Assembly (NCBI GenBank): GCA_017521605.1
Contig: JAFXCD010000009.1
Coordinates: 124,001 to 188,000 of the forward strand
Length of the DNA: 64,000 nt
Source of the DNA: Lachnospiraceae bacterium
GTDB taxonomy: Bacteria > Bacillota > Clostridia > Lachnospirales > Lachnospiraceae
Direction of reading: 5' to 3'
The notes under the pieces are model-generated. The model was given only the letters and a program-made list of their open reading frames with translations. It was not told the origin of the DNA and did not search any database. Each line of letters starts with the position of its first letter. Position 1 is the first letter of the stretch. Positions 12,874 through 62,311 of this stretch are shown here, in pieces. A program made the position numbers and the translations under genes.

Positions 12874-12972
12874 ATAGGCACTTGTCAAAAATCTGGAATT
12901 TCTTGGACATAGTACGATTAGTACAACCATAAAAAGAATCAATGATAAAAATAATTTGTTTTTTACTTTATT

Positions 12973-13021
12973 GTTTACAAATCATCAACTTTTTACTTTA
13001 TATAATATAGATTTGCAAATC
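12973..13021 (+). promoter_or_regulatory. Regulon promoter/operator, copy 1
   Basis: GTTTACA at 12973-12979, then 30 bp including TATAAT (13001-13006), then the perfect 12-bp palindrome GATTTGCAAATC at 13010-13021. The palindrome sits immediately after the -10, an ideal repressor position. The same layout precedes the genes at 22577 and 59788 and, with a different palindrome, 13718. Confidence 0.75.
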
Positions 13022-13047
13022 AATAACAAAAGAAAGGAGGAGCTTAT

Positions 13048-13596
13048 ATGTCAGCACCATGGATGATTAATCTTACAGGTAACAATATTCCGGTATATAC
13101 TGAAGATGGTAGCGGACCTATATTACCCCAACTTGGTAATATAACCAGAAATGAATGCTTTATAGAAGGTGTTCTTTCTGGAAATCCTTTTGAGGGTGAA
13201 GGTTGTCCCGTCATTTTTCTTAATGCCAATCACGTATTTACATTTGGCTTAGCTAGAAACGAGGACTGTGTTGGTGGAAATGGTTTTGTACCATTTACTG
13301 CATATGCATCAAATGGTACAGCATGGGTCTCTGTTGATACACTTGAACGAAAAGTTCAGTATGCAACAAAGTGTTATGATCGTAATGGTAGTTTCTATTG
13401 TGATCTACCTGCCGGTTCACGTGTCTGGTTAAAATCAAGCGGAGCAGCTGGGGATACACAGAGAAATTACATTGCTGTAACAAGTGTAGAAACCGCTTCT
13501 GGTCAAAGATATGACTTTAATGGTCATGGCTACATCGACCTGACCTATAATAATCGCTGGATTAATGTTGGAAGTATTTTATTAAGAAAGGCATAA
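13048..13596 (+). CDS. Small beta-rich protein, paralogue of the 22577-23107 product
   Basis: 182 residues, no signal peptide or membrane helix, rich in W, Y, G and N and probably all-beta. It is clearly paralogous to the 176-residue protein at 22577-23107: both begin with WMINL(S/T)GN(N/S)IPVY and end with (N/G)RW(I/V)NVGSILLRK, with a conserved FTFG/NTFG core. I do not recognise the family. It precedes a DUF1906 protein and shares its promoter design, so partner, wall-binding or protective roles are all possible. AAAGGAGG precedes the start. It ends at its own terminator. Confidence 0.8.
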   Translation: MSAPWMINLTGNNIPVYTEDGSGPILPQLGNITRNECFIEGVLSGNPFEGEGCPVIFLNANHVFTFGLARNEDCVGGNGFVPFTAYASNGTAWVSVDTLERKVQYATKCYDRNGSFYCDLPAGSRVWLKSSGAAGDTQRNYIAVTSVETASGQRYDFNGHGYIDLTYNNRWINVGSILLRKA

Positions 13597-13600
13597 GTTA

Positions 13601-13645
13601 AACGGTCACCTTACCGAAACAAAATTAGATAAGGTGGCCGTTTTT
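13601..13645 (+). terminator. Intrinsic terminator
   Basis: AACGGTCACCTTA / TAAGGTGGCCGTT, 13 bp including one G-U pair, followed by TTTTT. It separates the small beta-rich gene from the next regulon promoter, which starts 2 bp later. Confidence 0.85.
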
Positions 13646-13646
13646 A

Positions 13647-13693
13647 GTTTACAAATTTAAATAATATTCTTTCTTAAATTATGTAAGCTTACA
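13647..13693 (+). promoter_or_regulatory. Regulon promoter/operator, copy 2 (variant palindrome)
   Basis: GTTTACA at 13647-13653, then 28 bp, then the perfect 12-bp palindrome TGTAAGCTTACA at 13682-13693. It has the same layout as the three GATTTGCAAATC copies but a different palindrome sequence; the likely -10 (TTAAATTAT) overlaps its left edge. Confidence 0.6.
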
Positions 13694-13717: not shown

Positions 13718-15949
13718 ATGGATGAAGCAGTTTTACGAGCCCAAAAATGGGTAAATGAAAATTATCTTAGCAAGAATGGTTTTGCAACAATTTCAGAAGA
13801 TGGTATTACGGGTCAGAATACAGTTAAAGCACTCATTATTGCTTTACAAATTGAAATTGGTGTTAGCAGCCCAAATGGAACTTTTGGTCCCACAACCACT
13901 TCCCTATGCCCTACCCTGTCCAAAAATGTAAATGCAGCAGCATCTAACATTGTTAAAATATTGCAGCATGGTATGTTTTGTAAAGGATATAGCACACAAT
14001 CCGTTACTGGAATATTTGGCGATAACACTGAAAATGCAGTAAAATCTGTTCAGTCTGATGCTGGATTGAACGCAGATGGCATTGTAACTCCACTAATTTT
14101 CAAAACTGTATTAAACACCGACCCCCTGACACTTGCTTCTGATGGTGATACCCAAATCAGATATATTCAGCAGCAACTAAACAACAGGTATAACCAGTAT
14201 TTTGGCATAATTCCTTGCAATGGAAAATATGAGAGAAATACAAACAAAGCATTGATTTATGCTTTGCAAGCTGAGGAGGGATTAAATACTAACACTGCTA
14301 ATGGTTCCTTTGGACCAACAACACAGAGATTATGCCCTACTATATCAATTGATAATGCATCATCATATCCTGAGTTTGTAAAAATTCTAAAATATGCACT
14401 AAAGTGTAATGGCATGAATCTTACCTCATTAGATGATACATTTAATGAAGAGGTTAAAAACTCTATTATCAGTTTTCAAAATTTTGTATCCCTTCCTGAC
14501 AATGGCGGAATTGCTGATTTAAATGTCTGGATGTCCCTATTGACAAGTAAGGGGAATCCCGATCGCCAAGTAAGTGGCTGTGATTGTGCAACAGTAATTA
14601 CAAATCAGAATGTATCTGTATTGGTAAATAATGGTTATAGATTCATTGGCCGCTATTTAACTGGTCGATATAAACTGACTCAACAAGAAATTGCGATCCT
14701 AACACAAAACAGTATTCGCATTTTTCCAATATTTCAACGCTCTGGCGAAGGGATTTCAGCGACTAGCGTAGGATATTTTACATTATCTCGAGCTGTTGCT
14801 GATGCTCGAGACGCTATACAGGCTGCATTACGATTAGGATTCCGCTCTGGCACTATCATCTATTTTGCTGTTGACTATGATGCTTATGACGCACAGGTAA
14901 CTAATGTATTGCTCCCCTTTTTCCGTACATTATCTCGTGAATTTCGGAATATGAACTATGCAGGCTTTAAAATTGGAATCTATGGTCCCAGAAATGTCTG
15001 TACTCGTATTTCACAAGCCGGTTATGCCGTTGCAAGTTTTGTTTCAGATATGTCAACAGGATATAGTGGAAATCTTGGCTACCCTATGCCATATAACTGG
15101 ACATTTGATCAGATTGTTACTACAGTAATAACAGACCCTACAACCAATGTATCTATTGAAATAGACAAAGATGTAGTTAGAGGTGTGGATGCTGGTGCAC
15201 AGTTCCAAAACGATTATGAAAACAAAATCCGTTTTGAAGATGCACATACTCGTGCATTAATGTTGACTGCGCAATTTGAAGGTAGCGGAGATGGCTATAA
15301 GACTATTGCTGGTGACTTTGATGGTGCTGGTCTTTCATTGGGTATTATCCAGTTTAATATTGGTCAAGAAACATTACAACCCTTATTATCGGATATTTTA
15401 TCAAATAATAGAAATCTTGTGCTATCAATTTTTGGTCATGAAAAAACTGAAGAATTGGAAGATATGCTTAACAGCAGTTTAACAGAACAGCTTGCATGGG
15501 CACGTAGTATTAATGATGCTTCAGGTGAATCAATTAATGCTGAATGGACAGCATTATTTGAGGCACTTTGCGAAACCTCTGAATTTCAAGCAATTCAGAA
15601 TGAGTACATCGAGCCTTATAAAGAACGTGCTATCGCAAAATGTGCTTTGTTTGGTGGTTTTTCGACAAATCGGGCTTATGCATTTATGTTTGATTGTTCA
15701 GTACAGTGCGGTGGTTTCGAACAAACTGAAGTAGATGAAATTCGTACATTAATTATTGATGATATGTCTGAAGTTGAACGTTTACAAGTTATTGCAAATG
15801 TTATGCGATCAACGCGTGGCGAAGATCCTTATATTCGAAGAACATGCATCATTAATGGAACCGGCACAGTTCATGGTGCAGAAATTGACCTTTCTGACTA
15901 TGGTATTGATGATAAAGAAATAATCGATATGCCTTCGGAAGCAAACTAA
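13718..15949 (+). CDS. Multidomain wall-active protein: peptidoglycan-binding repeats, DUF1906, lysozyme-like domain
   Basis: 743 residues without a Sec signal peptide. Residues 1-280 hold four peptidoglycan-binding-1-like repeats (for example GIFGDNTENAVKSVQ and NGSFGPTTQRL). Residues 286-490 are a DUF1906 (Rv2525c-type glycoside-hydrolase-like) barrel with GYRFIGRYLTG, IYFAVDYDAY and GFKIGIYGPRNVC. Residues 510-743 resemble a lysozyme/chitosanase-like domain: LTAQFEGSGDG, then GDFDGAGLSLGIIQFNIGQ, where E and D would be catalytic. The paralogue at 59788-62232 shares the first two parts but not the last. Probably targets cell walls; whether it helps DNA transfer or attacks competitors is open, and the export route is unclear. 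Confidence 0.8.
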   Translation: MDEAVLRAQKWVNENYLSKNGFATISEDGITGQNTVKALIIALQIEIGVSSPNGTFGPTTTSLCPTLSKNVNAAASNIVKILQHGMFCKGYSTQSVTGIFGDNTENAVKSVQSDAGLNADGIVTPLIFKTVLNTDPLTLASDGDTQIRYIQQQLNNRYNQYFGIIPCNGKYERNTNKALIYALQAEEGLNTNTANGSFGPTTQRLCPTISIDNASSYPEFVKILKYALKCNGMNLTSLDDTFNEEVKNSIISFQNFVSLPDNGGIADLNVWMSLLTSKGNPDRQVSGCDCATVITNQNVSVLVNNGYRFIGRYLTGRYKLTQQEIAILTQNSIRIFPIFQRSGEGISATSVGYFTLSRAVADARDAIQAALRLGFRSGTIIYFAVDYDAYDAQVTNVLLPFFRTLSREFRNMNYAGFKIGIYGPRNVCTRISQAGYAVASFVSDMSTGYSGNLGYPMPYNWTFDQIVTTVITDPTTNVSIEIDKDVVRGVDAGAQFQNDYENKIRFEDAHTRALMLTAQFEGSGDGYKTIAGDFDGAGLSLGIIQFNIGQETLQPLLSDILSNNRNLVLSIFGHEKTEELEDMLNSSLTEQLAWARSINDASGESINAEWTALFEALCETSEFQAIQNEYIEPYKERAIAKCALFGGFSTNRAYAFMFDCSVQCGGFEQTEVDEIRTLIIDDMSEVERLQVIANVMRSTRGEDPYIRRTCIINGTGTVHGAEIDLSDYGIDDKEIIDMPSEAN

Positions 15950-16993: not shown

Positions 16994-18565
16994 CTACTTT
17001 AATCTACTGGATTCCCTCACAATAATTAAAGTTTTCTTTGTATTATCAAAAACAAAGGTATAATAAGTTCCTTCAATAGGTTCGGAAGTTCTATACACCT
17101 GGCTTTGAGCATATACATCTGGTTCATAAATTAACTTACAATCCAGTAATGCCTGTACTTCTTCTAACGTCATTCCTAGAGAAAACCGTCCGTTTCGACT
17201 CCCTCCCTCTTGCAAGTCTATCTGATACAACCCTTTGTTTTTATCAAAATACAACAAGTAACTATTTGCATTGACAGATATTGATTGTGCAACCCGTTCA
17301 TCATCTATTCTTTCTCCTGGAAACAAGGTCTCAAAATAATCCATATTCTGCTGATCCAATATTACTTCTGCCTCTGATATCGTCATTTCCCATTGTAATT
17401 CATTCAACGTTTCACGACAACTCTCTTCAGAATATTCTTCTACCATAATAGGAACAAAACTGTCCGAATAAGTTTCTGTACCGGGCTGAAAAATATCTCC
17501 TGTAACTTCAATCGTTTTTTGCATATTACCCAAGTCTTTCCCTGCCGCTAGGAATGTACCATCCTTTAACTGTACAAACACATTAAAATTATACTTATTT
17601 CTGTGTTTACTAGTATCATAGACTCCTTGCTCGAATCCCCGGTTGTTTATTCTTTCAACCCACACCATACTAACGCCATCTAATACCTTAGTAGGAATAC
17701 GAACATAATCATCATCTCCGACTTTTACTCCACATTCTCCTAAAATATTTAATCCCCAAGTATACAACTCTCCATCTGCTGTAATAGCTGCTCCATGCCA
17801 ATCACCTGTTACAGCATAAATACAATCTTCCAGAATCATTTTAGGAGTAGTATATAAAATTTTTGTAGGGTTTTTCTCATCCTCCTCGTCCTGCCAATAA
17901 TATTGATAGTTATACCCTTTGGCTTCAGTCAAATATGTGGAACTGTATTCTCCCCACCACCATACGGTTCCATCTTGTTTTAATGCTAGAATAGATTTCA
18001 TTCCCGCACTTGCATAAACTACATCCTGCATAAGCAACACCGGTTCTGTTATCTTACTGTAATCATGATCAGAATAACACACCTCGTATGGTTGTCCCAA
18101 AAGTCCCAGTCTATTGGAACCCATTCCATACAAATTTCCATCTTCTGTTAAATAAATGGCAAAATATCCATTGCCGGAAGCATCAACCGATACCACATTT
18201 TCCGCAATTTTTACTGGTTCTGTGTAATGATATTCGAAATCTACCCGTCCTATTCCAAGTTGCCCAAACTCATTATTCCCATATCCCCATAATACTTGTT
18301 CTTCATCAATAATATATTGATTACCCACTGTTTTACGATTCTTACAATATAAAGAACTAATCAAAAAATTTTCTTCTATATCTGCCGTTTCTAAAGAATC
18401 CGCAAAAAACACTGGTAAGTTCTCTACTAAATTTTCTTTCTCTAGCGTATTCACAGTTACCTCTTCTACTTCCGTTGAAATCTCATCTATTTCTTCAGAT
18501 AACGGTTCTTTCATTTGACATCCAGTAAGCAAAAGACACATTAAAACAATAATCACTTTTTTCAT
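16994..18565 (-). CDS. Lipoprotein with RCC1-type beta-propeller repeats
   Basis: 523 residues. The signal peptide MKKVIIVLMCLLLTGC ends in a clean lipobox (LTGC), so it is anchored outside the membrane. Residues about 95-310 carry RCC1-like blades (VLWGYGNNEFGQLGIG, NLYGMGSNRLGLLG, LYTWGLNILGECG). The C-terminus contains GMTLEEVQALLDCKL, resembling a small beta-lactamase-inhibitor-like/SmpA fold. Start 18565 has AAAGGAGG upstream. The same RCC1 blades are fused to the BlaR1-like protease in this cluster, suggesting they bind the same or related ligands (inference). Confidence 0.8.
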   Translation of the reverse strand: MKKVIIVLMCLLLTGCQMKEPLSEEIDEISTEVEEVTVNTLEKENLVENLPVFFADSLETADIEENFLISSLYCKNRKTVGNQYIIDEEQVLWGYGNNEFGQLGIGRVDFEYHYTEPVKIAENVVSVDASGNGYFAIYLTEDGNLYGMGSNRLGLLGQPYEVCYSDHDYSKITEPVLLMQDVVYASAGMKSILALKQDGTVWWWGEYSSTYLTEAKGYNYQYYWQDEEDEKNPTKILYTTPKMILEDCIYAVTGDWHGAAITADGELYTWGLNILGECGVKVGDDDYVRIPTKVLDGVSMVWVERINNRGFEQGVYDTSKHRNKYNFNVFVQLKDGTFLAAGKDLGNMQKTIEVTGDIFQPGTETYSDSFVPIMVEEYSEESCRETLNELQWEMTISEAEVILDQQNMDYFETLFPGERIDDERVAQSISVNANSYLLYFDKNKGLYQIDLQEGGSRNGRFSLGMTLEEVQALLDCKLIYEPDVYAQSQVYRTSEPIEGTYYTFVFDNTKKTLIIVRESSRLK

Positions 18566-18627
18566 ATATATTTCCTCCTTTAACTTGCTTTTCCACAACT
18601 AATCAGCATCGAATAACCAAAATACTT

Positions 18628-18664
18628 GTGTGGTACGGCGTCCTAAGACGCCCCCACACTTTTT
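18628..18664 (+). terminator. Hairpin between two minus-strand lipoprotein genes
   Basis: GTGTGG/CCACAC plus GGCGTC/GACGCC stem with loop CTAA. The T-run (TTTTT) is on the plus strand, so it would stop antisense rather than gene transcription; on the minus strand it may stabilise or space the mRNA. Confidence 0.45.
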
Positions 18665-18690
18665 AGAACTCTACTAAATCAGTCACCTTT

Positions 18691-19597
18691 TCATAGAATT
18701 TCCATCATATTTTCAAAGTATATCTCATAATCTGAATTATCAATATATACAATCCAATGTTCTAATATATCAACATATTGCATTCGTAAATCTAATATCG
18801 TAACTTTTCTCTTCTCATCAAGGCTAATAATCAAAGTCTGATATTCTATACCATCTTTACATAATTCCAAAACAACATAGTTTTCATTATAGTTCTTTAT
18901 AAATACTTCATTATTCTCATGTTCCACTTGGTATAGGATTTCTTCACCTAATAATACTTTTTTGCTATCATCTGTACTAATTACATAATCTAATCTATCA
19001 TTTTTACTTATAGTAATATCATACTTATCGATTAAATTTTCATCTATGGAATCCTCTGTAATATTTAATTCATAAAGTGCATCTAGCATTCCCTCTATTG
19101 TATAAGTCCTTACAAATAAAATGTCCTCACTTACGTCTAAAAAGGAGGCATCAGTCTCATTAATAACTTTATAACCTTCTCCTGAAGAACTCACTTTGCT
19201 CAAAAAATAGGGTAATCCTCTGATACCTTGAGCATCTTCTAGGAAATATATCCATCCTTCATATACCGTAATTCCTAATATTGTACTATTTCCTTTGAAA
19301 ATTTGCTCTTTTTCAAAATTATTCTTATTAATTCTCCAGAGCCCCTTCTCTTTAATATAGTATATATAATTCTCATCCATATCTGAGATTAAATTATTAA
19401 AGTTAGGTTCTAAAATACTTTTTGCTAAATCACTTTCTATTCCACCTAATCGAACAAGCTCCTCATTATCAACCTTTGATTCAGAAACAGTATATGTCTT
19501 ATCTGTCATCATACCCTTTTCTATATCTTTTTCACCACATCCGTTCAATACTATGGATAGAAAAAAACAGAGTCATAATAATTTTTGTCTTTTGCAT
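18691..19597 (-). pseudogene. Lipoprotein (DUF5050-like) with a frameshift in its signal peptide
   Basis: The open frame starting at a TTG (19548) begins NGCGEKDIEKG, i.e. at a lipobox with no signal peptide before it. In the next frame upstream an ATG at 19597 encodes MQKTKIIMTLFF. Removing one T from the run of seven at 19561-19567 joins them into MQKTKIIMTLFFLSIVLNGC, a perfect lipoprotein signal. About 280 residues follow, with short YIYYI/GLWRIN/GWIYFLE repeats like DUF5050 propeller blades. It is either a real homopolymer frameshift (possibly phase-variable) or an assembly error. It belongs to the BlaR1-RCC1 cluster. Confidence 0.65.
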
Positions 19598-19625
19598 TTT
19601 TACTTTATTCATCATCTTCACATAT

Positions 19626-20108
19626 TTACCTTTCTATGATAAGTACCAAAATAAATACTAAGAAGCCTCCTATATTGTACCAAATATCAGCCAGACACCA
19701 AATAACTATACTGCTTACAATAATAATTAAGCTCTTAATGACTTTTGAAATTGACACCCTGGTACTGATAACCTTCATCAAAATAACTATACCCCAATAA
19801 AAGAGTGAAAATATCAATCCGTAGGATATACCAAATAATAAATATGGAAGTAATGCACTAAAATATTCTTGTAGATGAGGGATTATTTCCCCATAACACC
19901 TAAAAAGATCGGGATGTGCTCTATCATGATATTCAAACCATGATATACTTACTAACAAAAGTATTGCCAAAATTTTAAAATTTCTAACATATTTTCCAGG
20001 TCTTGTTAAAACTGCAACCATAACAGTTGTTATAGTACATATTAAAAAAAAGATGCCTTCTGCTTCGCACAACCATTCAATACAAAATTTTAACCATCCC
20101 ATAAACAT
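19626..20108 (-). CDS. Integral membrane protein of unknown function
   Basis: 160 residues with about four hydrophobic helices (for example IFFLICTITTVMVAVL and LLPYLLFGISYGLIFSLFYW). I recognise no family. It lies 44 bp downstream of the BlaR1-RCC1 gene, same strand, and 28 bp before the lipoprotein pseudogene, so it is probably cotranscribed. AGAAGGA precedes the first of two ATGs. Confidence 0.6.
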   Translation of the reverse strand: MFMGWLKFCIEWLCEAEGIFFLICTITTVMVAVLTRPGKYVRNFKILAILLLVSISWFEYHDRAHPDLFRCYGEIIPHLQEYFSALLPYLLFGISYGLIFSLFYWGIVILMKVISTRVSISKVIKSLIIIVSSIVIWCLADIWYNIGGFLVFILVLIIER

Positions 20109-20152
20109 TAATCCTTCTTAACAAAACCTACTATTTGCATAATTGACAGGCC

Positions 20153-22087
20153 CTAATCCATATCTATTTCATCTGGCAATTCCATAAACTTATCTGTACA
20201 TGTAACAGAATAATCATAGATTTCCCAATATCGCTGTAAAACTTTTTCTTCACCAATTCCTATTCCACATGCCCAATATGTGCCATCATTTTTTAATATA
20301 ATTGTATTCTCTAACATTCTTTCATATATGCCTTCAAAATCTGCAATATTTTTACAGTCTACATTATATTCTATTCTACCAGTCCAAACCATTTGAACAC
20401 CATCTGCAACTTTTTGAGGTTCCGATACTACTACACCTTCTGTACCACAGTTACCTGCATAATTATATCCCCAAGTCCAGACACTTCCATCTGTTAATAA
20501 TGCTGCATGATTAAACCATCCACCTGTAATCAACGCAACATTTTCTAATATCAATCGTGGCGTAGCTATATAGTAACTTTCTCTTGCATCTCTCCAAACA
20601 GTACCCCAAGTCCAAGCACTTCCATCATCTAACAGACACACTATATCATCTTTTCCACATCTTGCATAAATCACATTTTCCATTAATAATTTGGGACTAG
20701 TAACTACGTAATTACCTCTATTCCATACCATTTTATCTGTAATATTTTCATACTCCAATAACGCTCCGGTTCCCGCACATCCCATTCCATAAAGTTTACC
20801 ATCAGCCGTTAAATAAATAGTAAACCCTTGTTGTGAAAAATCAACATGCACTACATTTTCTGCAATCTTAATGAATTCATTGTGGAAATCACTATCTTGT
20901 TTACCTAATCCTAATTGGCCATAATCATTCCTTCCTGTTCCCCACAATATACCCGAGTCATCAATATAATAAAGATTGCTTGGATCCCCAATATTTGTTG
21001 AATAAAACTCTTCAATATTTAGTGCTATTGATTTATTCTCTTCAATGGTGTCTTCAATAATATCCATCGATGGAGTTTGTTCTACTATAGCATCTTTAGG
21101 CATAGTAACTGCATCTATACTATTTGCTTTTACAATACTAAGCACATTCGTACTAGTTATTCCTAAAATCGTCACTAGTAATGTTGTTAATAAAACCTTT
21201 CTCCTCTTTTGATACTTCATAATTAATTCAATTCGTTCTTTTAACATCTTCATTCCACCACTCATTGATGTAGCCAGTAACATTTCATGTCGAAATTGAC
21301 CAATACTTTCAACAACAGATAATAAAGACTGACCATATTGATATCTTTCTGTCTCTGACAAATTACTTATAACTCTTGCATCACAAGCAAGTTCTCCGTC
21401 TTCTTTAGATTTGTAATACGCCCACCATACTAAAGGATTGTGCCATTGCAAAATCAAACAAGCAGTTCTAAATAATTGCCATATATTATCTCTTACTCTA
21501 TAATGTTGATATTCATGTTTTATGATATAATCAATTACTTTTTTATCTTTTAGTTTCTCCGTATCTACATAAATTATAGGGCGTAATATACCAACCAAAC
21601 AATTATAATCTGATAAACTATAAACCGCTACACGTCCATTACATTTACCAATTATCTTTCTATTTCTTCTCATATCTGAATACAACCTAATATTTACTAC
21701 TACAATAAATACAGAAAATATTGCTGTCACCACTATCCAAATAATGTCTAGAATTTTATATAAAGAGACTTCATTGGCTTGCTCTGACACATTCGAATTG
21801 GTTTCAACATTAATATTTCCCTTATATATACCCTGTAATAAATTACTATCTGGTGGCATTACCTGTTCTATAAATGACACATTAGAGACCACCTCTTGAG
21901 CTTTTTGCGGCATCTCAATATCTATCTTTAGACGAATAGGGATAATAATGCATATTACTGCAAATATCCACAAAAAGTACAATGTATTAGGGTTTAAATA
22001 TTTTTTAAAGATTTTCCTAATTATTGCAATCAGAACAATTAATATAGATACATCTATTGTTACTTCCCATATACTTCTAAAACTCAT
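20153..22087 (-). CDS. BlaR1-like M56 metalloprotease fused to an RCC1 beta-propeller
   Basis: 644 residues. Residues 1-320 are a BlaR1/MecR1-type membrane protease with four membrane helices, zinc motif HEYQH at 191-195 and the downstream EDGELACDARVI typical of M56. The last helix is near 298-318. In place of the beta-lactam-binding sensor, residues about 365-600 carry RCC1 blades (ILWGTGRNDYGQLGLG, LYGMGCAGTGALL, VWTWGYNYAGNCG) outside the cell. By analogy, ligand binding would activate cleavage of the BlaI-type repressor. The ATG overlaps the repressor stop by 4 bp. The sensor swap is the unusual feature. Confidence 0.88.
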   Translation of the reverse strand: MSFRSIWEVTIDVSILIVLIAIIRKIFKKYLNPNTLYFLWIFAVICIIIPIRLKIDIEMPQKAQEVVSNVSFIEQVMPPDSNLLQGIYKGNINVETNSNVSEQANEVSLYKILDIIWIVVTAIFSVFIVVVNIRLYSDMRRNRKIIGKCNGRVAVYSLSDYNCLVGILRPIIYVDTEKLKDKKVIDYIIKHEYQHYRVRDNIWQLFRTACLILQWHNPLVWWAYYKSKEDGELACDARVISNLSETERYQYGQSLLSVVESIGQFRHEMLLATSMSGGMKMLKERIELIMKYQKRRKVLLTTLLVTILGITSTNVLSIVKANSIDAVTMPKDAIVEQTPSMDIIEDTIEENKSIALNIEEFYSTNIGDPSNLYYIDDSGILWGTGRNDYGQLGLGKQDSDFHNEFIKIAENVVHVDFSQQGFTIYLTADGKLYGMGCAGTGALLEYENITDKMVWNRGNYVVTSPKLLMENVIYARCGKDDIVCLLDDGSAWTWGTVWRDARESYYIATPRLILENVALITGGWFNHAALLTDGSVWTWGYNYAGNCGTEGVVVSEPQKVADGVQMVWTGRIEYNVDCKNIADFEGIYERMLENTIILKNDGTYWACGIGIGEEKVLQRYWEIYDYSVTCTDKFMELPDEIDMD

Positions 22088-22458
22088 TCTTTTCCCTCTT
22101 TATACAAATTGTCTAAAATCTCATGTAATTCCTTCAACTCGCCATCTGATAGTGATTTTTCACTAACCATCTCAGAAATCATCAATCCTATTTTACCTTG
22201 ATAAAATGTATTTAATAAAAATCCTCTTTGTTTTTTTGCAACGACATCTTTCGTTATGGTTGCTGAATATAGTTTAGCTCTCCCTTTTTCCACGTACTTT
22301 ACTATCCCTTTTGTTTCCATTCTACGCAAAAACGAGATTACTGCTTGCTTACTCCAATTTGTTTCTCCTTCGAGTTTCTTATATATCTCCATGGTAGAAA
22401 GACTTCCCTCTTCCCATAATATAGACAATATCTTTTGTTCTGAATCCGTAATATTCAT
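22084..22458 (-). CDS. BlaI/MecI/CopY family repressor
   Basis: 124 residues with the winged helix LTxSEQ-like ITDSEQKILSILWEEGSLST and the recognition region WSKQAVISFLRRMETKGIV. Length is typical of BlaI, which dimerises and is inactivated by its partner protease. The ATG at 22458 with GGAGGAAATT is preferred over longer in-frame starts, which would place the promoter and operator inside the gene. It is translationally coupled to the BlaR1-like protease. Confidence 0.9.
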   Translation of the reverse strand: MNITDSEQKILSILWEEGSLSTMEIYKKLEGETNWSKQAVISFLRRMETKGIVKYVEKGRAKLYSATITKDVVAKKQRGFLLNTFYQGKIGLMISEMVSEKSLSDGELKELHEILDNLYKEGKE

Positions 22459-22468
22459 AATTTCCTCC

Positions 22469-22492
22469 ATTGGTAACAATATTGTTACCAAT
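22469..22492. promoter_or_regulatory. BlaI operator
   Basis: A perfect 24-bp palindrome with half-site ATTGGTAACAAT, immediately downstream of the -10 and 10 bp before the BlaI start. Position and dyad shape fit autorepression by BlaI. Confidence 0.8.
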
Positions 22493-22521
22493 AGCATAGC
22501 ATACCATTCTGCCTGTGTCAA
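22493..22521 (-). promoter_or_regulatory. Promoter of the BlaI / BlaR1-RCC1 operon
   Basis: TTGACA (22516-22521), 17 bp, TATGCT (22493-22498) on the minus strand, abutting the 24-bp operator. Confidence 0.8.
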
Positions 22522-23138: not shown

Positions 23139-23187
23139 GATTTGCAAATCTATATAATATAAAGATTTTTAGGAGGTAAATGTAAAC
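23139..23187 (-). promoter_or_regulatory. Regulon promoter/operator, copy 3
   Basis: On the minus strand GTTTACA (23181-23187), 30 bp, then the palindrome GATTTGCAAATC (23139-23150) preceded by TATATTATATA. Spacing is identical to copy 1. Confidence 0.75.
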
Positions 23188-48069: not shown

Positions 48070-48639
48070 ATGTCTGTAATGAATAAAGCACAACAGGAAT
48101 TAGTGGAAAAACATCTTTATCTGGTACGTAATATTGTACTTAGCACCATTACAATCAATGAAAGCATTCAAGGCCTGGGATACGAAGATTTATACCAGAC
48201 CGGCTGCGAAGCATTATGCCATGCTGCAATTAATTATCATGCAGAACGTGGGGCTTCCTTCGCTACCTTCGCTGATGTAGTGATAAAAAATAAATTAATC
48301 TCACACTGCAGGAAAATCACCCGCGTTCAAAGCCTTACCTGCTATCTGGATGCACCTATAACAGAAGAATCCGGCTTAACTTACGCGGATACCATGTGTG
48401 ATGAGAACAATCACAGCTTAACCGACACCGAAACCTTCCTCATGCTCTCTGAAGCTGAAAAGCGTTTCACCGGTGTCACTAAAAAAGGCGTGAATGCCCT
48501 GAAACTAAAATACATGGGACATACCGGCGTGGAAATTGCCAAATTCTACAATGTAAAACCCAATCACGTAGCTGCCTGGATAACGAAAGCTGTCCATAAG
48601 CTTCGTACCGATTTCTATCTATCCTGCATGACAAACTAA
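48070..48639 (+). CDS. Sigma-70 family RNA polymerase sigma factor
   Basis: 189 residues. Region 2 is visible in YEDLYQTGCEALCHAAINY and GASFATFADVVIKNKLI, and region 4 helix-turn-helix in GHTGVEIAKFYNVKPNHVAA. It probably directs transcription of element genes; the shared P1/P2 promoters have sigma-A-like -10s, so a different target set is possible. GAGGTGAG precedes the start. Confidence 0.8.
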   Translation: MSVMNKAQQELVEKHLYLVRNIVLSTITINESIQGLGYEDLYQTGCEALCHAAINYHAERGASFATFADVVIKNKLISHCRKITRVQSLTCYLDAPITEESGLTYADTMCDENNHSLTDTETFLMLSEAEKRFTGVTKKGVNALKLKYMGHTGVEIAKFYNVKPNHVAAWITKAVHKLRTDFYLSCMTN

Positions 48640-62232: not shown

Positions 62233-62263
62233 AGTTTTGCACCTTTCATATAATTTATTATTA

Positions 62264-62311
62264 GATTTGCAAATCTATATATAAAAAGAAATAATAATGA
62301 CTTTTGTAAAC
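62264..62311 (-). promoter_or_regulatory. Regulon promoter/operator, copy 4
   Basis: On the minus strand GTTTACA (62305-62311), 29 bp, then palindrome GATTTGCAAATC (62264-62275) preceded by TATATATA. Same design as copies 1 and 3 at the other end of the element. Confidence 0.72.

Follow-up and report, generated by a model that had tools for sequence, protein, structure and literature searches.

The four genes that share a GTTTACA-type promoter in this DNA are, with a probability of about 85% as judged from sequence, the cargo of a regulon governed by a UviA/TcdR-type (group 5) sigma factor. The best candidate for their regulator would be a sigma factor that reads the −35/−10 core of the promoter, not a protein that binds the 12-bp palindrome downstream of it. 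The window (the whole 64,000-nucleotide stretch analyzed, part of contig C57 of genome G000) carries two genes for DUF1906 proteins and two for small paralogous proteins, which flank a block with conjugation genes. The original prediction held that one regulator, defined by GTTTACA plus the palindrome, co-expresses the four genes; co-expression by a single regulator is still probable, but the palindrome does not stand as its defining element.

Table 1. Positions of genes and promoter elements (window coordinates unless a contig or locus is named).
Feature	Position	Strand	Remarks
Small cargo protein 1, 182 aa	13048..13596	+	By eye, no clear signal peptide
Small cargo protein 2, 176 aa	22577..23107	-	53% identical to protein 1
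DUF1906 (Rv2525c-like glycoside hydrolase-like) + PG_binding_1 protein, 743 aa	13718..15949	+	
DUF1906 + PG_binding_1 protein, 814 aa	59788..62232	-	
Site before 13048 gene	GTTTACA 12973-12979, GATTTGCAAATC 13010-13021	+	Gap 30
Site before 13718 gene	GTTTACA 13647-13653, TGTAAGCTTACA 13682-13693	+	Gap 28
Site before 22577 gene	GTTTACA 23187-23181, GATTTGCAAATC 23150-23139	-	Gap 30
Site before 59788 gene	GTTTACA 62311-62305, GATTTGCAAATC core 62275-62264	-	Gap 29
Promoter core, 13048 gene	12973..13002	+	GTTTACA, N16, CTTTATA 12996-13002
Promoter core, 13718 gene	13647..13675	+	GTTTACA, N15, CTTTCTT
Promoter core, 22577 gene	23158..23187	-	GTTTACA, N16, CTTTATA 23164-23158
Promoter core, 59788 gene	62282..62311	-	GTTTACA, N16, CTTTTTA 62288-62282
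16-bp palindrome TAGATTTGCAAATCTA around GATTTGCAAATC core, 59788 gene	62262..62277		
BlaR1/RCC1 protease	Window 16994-22521; L040 6584-9577; L041 5361-7826	- (window)	By Pfam in window; by eye in L040 and L041
Candidate group 5 sigma factor	C57:205512-206051 = 81512-82051	-	17.5 kb beyond window, same contig

Re-reading of the window sequence confirmed all four sites exactly as predicted (Table 1). GTTTACA alone is unremarkable, with 12 occurrences in the window against 9.55 expected. The original prediction had proposed a search of the genome for the composite motif: GTTTACA-N28..32-GATTTGCAAATC occurs three times in its 3,806,430 bases, always inside the window, the reversed control gave 0, and no copy lies elsewhere. 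In 100 further genomes of the genus, the composite (pattern N26..32) has one match, 83 bases upstream of the start of a small-protein homologue that is 61% identical to protein 1. A composite built with the palindrome TGNAANNTTNCA gave no match, using a pattern that as written could not fit the 13718 site.

The conserved core, as derived from relatives, consists of GTTTACA, about 16 nt and CTTTNT, and is consistent with recognition by TcdR/UviA/BotR (group 5) sigma factors; the −10 of TcdR is CTCTTT. The −10 was originally placed at the TATA adjoining the palindrome, which is the less likely position; this TATA is not conserved between promoters. The likelier −10 elements are CTTTATA, CTTTATA, CTTTTTA and CTTTCTT, 15-16 nt after GTTTACA. 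The −35 element TTTACA is present in all four window promoters. C-T-T-T-N-T after GTTTACA was parsed in 42 of 48 collected promoters, a count that is partly circular in that the collecting pattern itself contains the −10, and the spacer in these 42 is 16 nt in 27, 15 nt in 10 and 13-14 nt in 5. The available part of one study gives TTTACA as the −35 for the TcdR/UviA/BotR group and describes its −10 as variable (PMC4885068), and that of another names SRQ in region 4.2 and a TTTACA −35 as the marks of group 5 sigma factors (PMC4031146).

The same promoter is found at other loci. In L041, whose record is titled Lachnospiraceae, the small gene is preceded by the same site as in the window, and two further, divergent GTTTACA-N16-CTTT sites, one with a different palindrome and the other with an imperfect one, precede genes for a muramidase and a DUF1906-type protein. 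A scan of C57:104100-227000 retained one further fitting site, GTTTACG-N16-CTTTTTT before the sigma gene of G000 itself, whose changed −35 counts against the sigma reading; five other loose matches (window coordinates 745, 12346, 69671, 94367 and 102651) were dropped as lacking GTTTAC. Several other results also count against it. The core alone has 29 matches in the genus against 39 for the reversed control, which was summed by hand; no such promoter site precedes the homologues of the small gene in L042 and L043; G070, a genome 86% complete, has the full motif and the small gene yet lacks a strong sigma match; and promoter-like sites occur in G085 and G097, where the sigma profile has no strong match. 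The family search gave 20 loci of DUF1906 type other than those of G000, and the promoter was found at 4 of them (L309, L310, L315 and L316), a count in which L310 was scored by eye and several loci end before a gene start. Phages were rejected as a source of the promoter, which is missing from up to 260 bases upstream (only 59 in L046) of nine of nine viral small-gene homologues.

The cargo appears to be directed to the cell wall. The two DUF1906 proteins, both with peptidoglycan-binding domains, are 35% identical to each other and score 139.2 and 134.1 bits against the DUF1906 profile (PF08924; cut-off 27.2). Elsewhere the promoter precedes genes for muramidase, Amidase_5, glucosaminidase, Hydrolase_2, CHAP and VanY/M15 proteins, all over Pfam cut-offs, and several other scanned proteins behind it have no Pfam match over cut-off, which counts against the sigma reading. 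Small protein 1 is predicted to be all-beta, a prediction made for protein 1 alone, and Foldseek returned no match at E ≤ 0.001. Scanning genome contigs for homologues found nothing with two profile rows and 4 loci with five. Viral relatives of the DUF1906 proteins numbered 111, of which 80 were kept; residues 500-731 of the 13718-15949 protein are 30-32% identical to Thermus phage proteins (seven records), and some of its Thermus phage relatives are annotated as peptidoglycan-binding. Homologues of the small protein are encoded on phage contigs L034, L035 and L044-L050, and in L034 and L035 the homologue is flanked, as judged by eye, by terminase-like genes on one side and portal-like genes on the other. 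In three genomes a BlaR1-type protease with RCC1 repeats, an unusual sensor architecture, and a BlaI-like gene adjoin the small cargo gene (Table 1). In L285 a 117-aa ORF (12922-13272, minus strand) lies behind the same promoter; its start resembles, by eye, a double-glycine leader peptide, and it is possibly a peptide bacteriocin.

The sigma factor of G000 contains SRQ, as do sigma ORFs beside the DUF1906 gene of G027 (L081) and at L073 and L076, two loci found via the promoter pattern. A profile (A5) built from the sigma factors of L081, L073 and L076 and a partial one from L043 matched 5 of 138 genus genomes at E<1e-50, three of which had supplied profile rows; the other two are G077 and the genome of the window, where the match (C57:205530-206051) lies on the window's own contig. 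At the level of the genus the association of sigma factor with promoter has a circular component, since promoter-pattern loci supplied two rows of the first profile; a third Fisher comparison of sigma and promoter by genome gave 4/5 against 22/133 with a G027 match on another contig omitted, which when counted by genome becomes 5/5 against 21/133, and is not used as support. Sigma profiles matched 13 of 396 family genomes at E<=1e-20 and 29 of 392 order genomes at E<=1e-15, and [ST]RQ is present in 39 of 44 sigma-like ORFs. The promoter lies upstream of 11 of the 12 sigma ORFs scoring over 210 bits (with TTTACG in G000), a set in which five come from one genus and two are identical. By a loose pattern it precedes only 18 of the 44 sigma-like ORFs, which counts against the reading, as does the score of the G000 sigma factor against the BotR model TIGR03209 (23.6 bits, cut-off 138.35); against the general sigma70-ECF model it scores 48.8 bits, over the cut-off of 42.9.

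Directly after the G000 sigma gene lies a holin ORF that matches TIGR01593, 'toxin secretion/phage lysis holin' (58.0 bits, cut-off 40.2), and also PF05105; the ORF after the sigma gene passes TIGR01593 in all eight loci tested (G000 and seven further), and the BhlA ORF of L246 gave no match to this model. At a distance of 2-4 kb from the sigma gene of G000 there are genes for AgrB, a kinase resembling AgrC and a LytTR protein, AgrB and kinase genes stand by the sigma gene in G441 and kinase and LytTR regulator genes in G098; Agr-type genes are near the sigma gene in three of nine listed loci, and by eye none was found in the other six, which counts against the reading. The combination of promoter core, sigma, holin and, in part, agr genes with these cargo domains recurs. 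A sigma-70-like ORF inside the window (48070-48639, plus strand), which sits in a block with conjugation genes, was rejected as the regulator: it lacks SRQ and is not among the strong sigma-profile matches. No sigma relative was confirmed in viral contigs. Outside the window on C57, at window coordinates 96420-97808 and 100053-101336, integrase-like and seryl-tRNA-synthetase-like ORFs were noticed by eye, and a mobile element may have one of its ends here.

As described in the accessible part of PMC9527704, UviA-UviB-Bcn5 of Clostridium perfringens resembles the arrangement found here in its alternative sigma factor of the same group, its linked holin, its linked wall hydrolase and its cargo without signal peptide. 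Unlike that system, the holin next to the sigma gene is of the TcdE/TIGR01593 kind (8/8 loci), the cargo comprises DUF1906, putatively SH3-like and other wall proteins, and the window cargo and the sigma gene extend over about 69 kb, conjugation genes lying between them; the palindromes at the expected transcript starts may be a further difference. TcdR-TcdE of Clostridioides difficile, so far as the available sections report (PMC4885068, PMC4597214), likewise has a sigma factor of this group, a linked holin and a TTTACA −35, and its autoregulation and the influence of Agr on its output would have counterparts in those predicted here; it differs in that the cargo here is wall-targeted, no toxin genes being found among the cargo scanned. 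The Terrisporobacter plasmid pTVTCOM2 (L241) also brings together a sigma factor, a holin annotated as UviB and two genes for glycoside-hydrolase-domain (DUF1906-like) proteins, which match the 13718 protein; in the part of PMC11253131 that was available, its sigma and holin genes are named uviA and uviB. Unlike here, the holin of pTVTCOM2 is BhlA/UviB. Upstream of its sigma, holin and hydrolase genes the sites are a poor fit to the core, and the one good site precedes an ORF of 245 aa that matches SH3 weakly.

When an inverted repeat is counted at a score of at least 5 and with its centre 38-46 nt from the first base of GTTTACA, none of 15 promoters of sigma and TcdE-type holin genes (13 and 2, respectively) has one and 19 of 33 others do (Fisher p=8e-5); the same criterion at ten shifted positions gives 0-4 of 32-33, and without the six sites that were found via the palindrome or the small gene the split is 13/27 against 0/15 (p=0.001). 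These 33 and 15 promoters were hand-picked from pattern matches that precede an ORF with a ribosome-site-like stretch; for the 59788 gene and some others this was read by eye. Matches inside genes, matches without such an ORF and duplicates were dropped, as were the G000 sigma site (TTTACG), which has no repeat, and a holin site in L285 that lies 142 nt from its gene. The 33 include two ORFs of 70-72 aa, holin-like by eye and without palindrome (L248, L292), and one of the 19 palindrome promoters belongs to a BhlA-type holin gene (L246); therefore the split is not simply one of holin versus cargo.

The palindromes lie over the expected transcript start and vary in sequence (GATTTGCAAATC, TGTAAGCTTACA, TGTAACTAGTTACA, GATAATCGATTATC, TATAAGCGCTTATA, TAGCCGGCTA, TTGAATGCGCATTCAA, ATAACACGTGTTAT and others), unrelated ones occurring within one genome or locus in G000, G027, L041 and G212. 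Recurrence is also seen: TAGCCGGCTA is found again in G733, a genome of another family than that of the window, and the orthologous DUF1906 genes of G000 and G027 (L081/L223) share TGTAAGCTTACA at the same distance. The variant before the 13718 gene, which the original prediction had taken for a possibly drifted site, is thus not so explained; a second factor, its other suggestion, may act there. In the sequences compared, symmetry at a fixed place is kept while the sequence often is not, which argues against a single regulator that binds the palindrome. Between the cargo and sigma genes of L076/L224, away from any promoter start, a perfect palindrome of 30 bp with TTTGCAAA at its centre (TTAGTAATTAATTTGCAAATTAATTACTAA) was also noticed.

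Two roles for the palindrome are compatible with a sigma regulon; the odds between them are even, and each by itself falls somewhat short of probable. The palindrome might be an operator, the sigma factor activating transcription and repressors at the transcript start restraining single cargo genes. Its position over the expected start, the mostly perfect centres and the identical palindrome in the G000 and G027 orthologues agree with this, as do the weak RNA stems of the cargo leaders; several repressors would be needed for one small regulon, however, and the extra central 1-2 nt at G330 and G345 would turn the half-sites. The BlaI genes beside small genes in G000, G070 (L040) and L041 have no GATTTGCAAATC upstream, which also tells against an operator, and BlaI beside small gene 2 was rejected as the palindrome binder.

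The palindrome might just as well be an RNA element, a 5′-terminal self-complementary stretch altering the stability of the cargo mRNA or promoter escape. Self-complementarity persists while the sequence varies, some sites have wobble pairs (G284, TGAATTAGCTGATTCA; G782, TGAGTTAGCTAATTCA), and the extra central nucleotides of G330 and G345 and a bulge in G027 would be at home in such an element. Against this, the folds predicted for 24 cargo leaders are weak (0 to -4.1 kcal/mol), and the best fold is not the palindrome stem at window 59788, at the L041 DUF1906 gene and at both G212 sites. The wobble test, which alone included the later-found DUF1906 sites of G345 and G833, gave stem score gains of 25.6 for G-U and 15.2 for A-C, but of 47.8 for A-A, and mostly perfect centres are not needed by a hairpin. 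It is conceivable, if a little less readily than either role alone, that a self-complementary cargo-transcript start, its symmetry selected over its sequence and absent from sigma and TcdE-type holin genes, constitutes a new control layer, acting through RNA or promoter escape, of toxin/bacteriocin-type regulons; such a layer would perhaps hold back lytic cargo.

The original model, in which a dimeric DNA-binding protein reads the palindrome and defines the regulon and the remainder is an ordinary promoter, now looks improbable. Perfect dyads and the recurrence of the TTTGCAAA core before unrelated genes in G000, G070, L041, G098, G212 and G277 speak for it, but the unrelated palindromes within single genomes, the lack of a repeat in all 15 sigma and TcdE-type holin promoters and in 14 of the 33 others, and the absence of a TATAAT consensus among the promoters weigh against it. 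That these are ordinary sigma-A promoters copied along with their genes, alike by ancestry only, is more improbable still: two paralogue pairs do share the sites, but the same core stands before unrelated genes in many genomes, and TTTACA and TATAAT in the 13048 promoter are 21 nt apart, a distance unsuitable for sigma-A.

The favored sigma regulon could operate as follows. A signal, perhaps Agr, would raise the level of the sigma factor, the Agr genes near its gene supplying a density signal. RNA polymerase with this sigma factor, encoded on the same contig, would recognize GTTTACA-N15/16-CTTTNT and transcribe the genes for the two DUF1906/PG-binding proteins and the two small proteins together with the sigma gene itself and the following holin gene, so that the sigma factor would amplify its own holin operon while the wall-targeted cargo at dispersed sites is switched on. 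The cargo would leave through the holin, with or without lysis, and act on cell walls; its simplest role would be that of a bacteriolytic bacteriocin or release set. The palindrome would add a further layer on many cargo genes, acting as DNA or RNA. Holin-dependent export of proteins without signal peptide is discussed in the available part of PMC9527704, and holin linkage in that of PMC4597214.

Group 5 sigma factors, in the literature sections at hand, are described from pathogenic clostridia as regulators of toxins and of a bacteriocin. The portions of the open-licence literature consulted contain no description of this type of regulon in Lachnospiraceae and none of the palindromes. The regulon would be of a known kind, with the palindrome as an additional element at many cargo transcript starts; this symmetric element is concrete and testable. 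The same wiring, consisting of the sigma factor, a TcdE-type holin and at some loci Agr, appears to run wall-targeted proteins in what are probably Lachnospiraceae and their relatives. If this is true, a broader bacterium-against-bacterium or lysis-release module would include the pathogen systems as special cases, and holin-dependent export and Agr control could be studied in harmless hosts.
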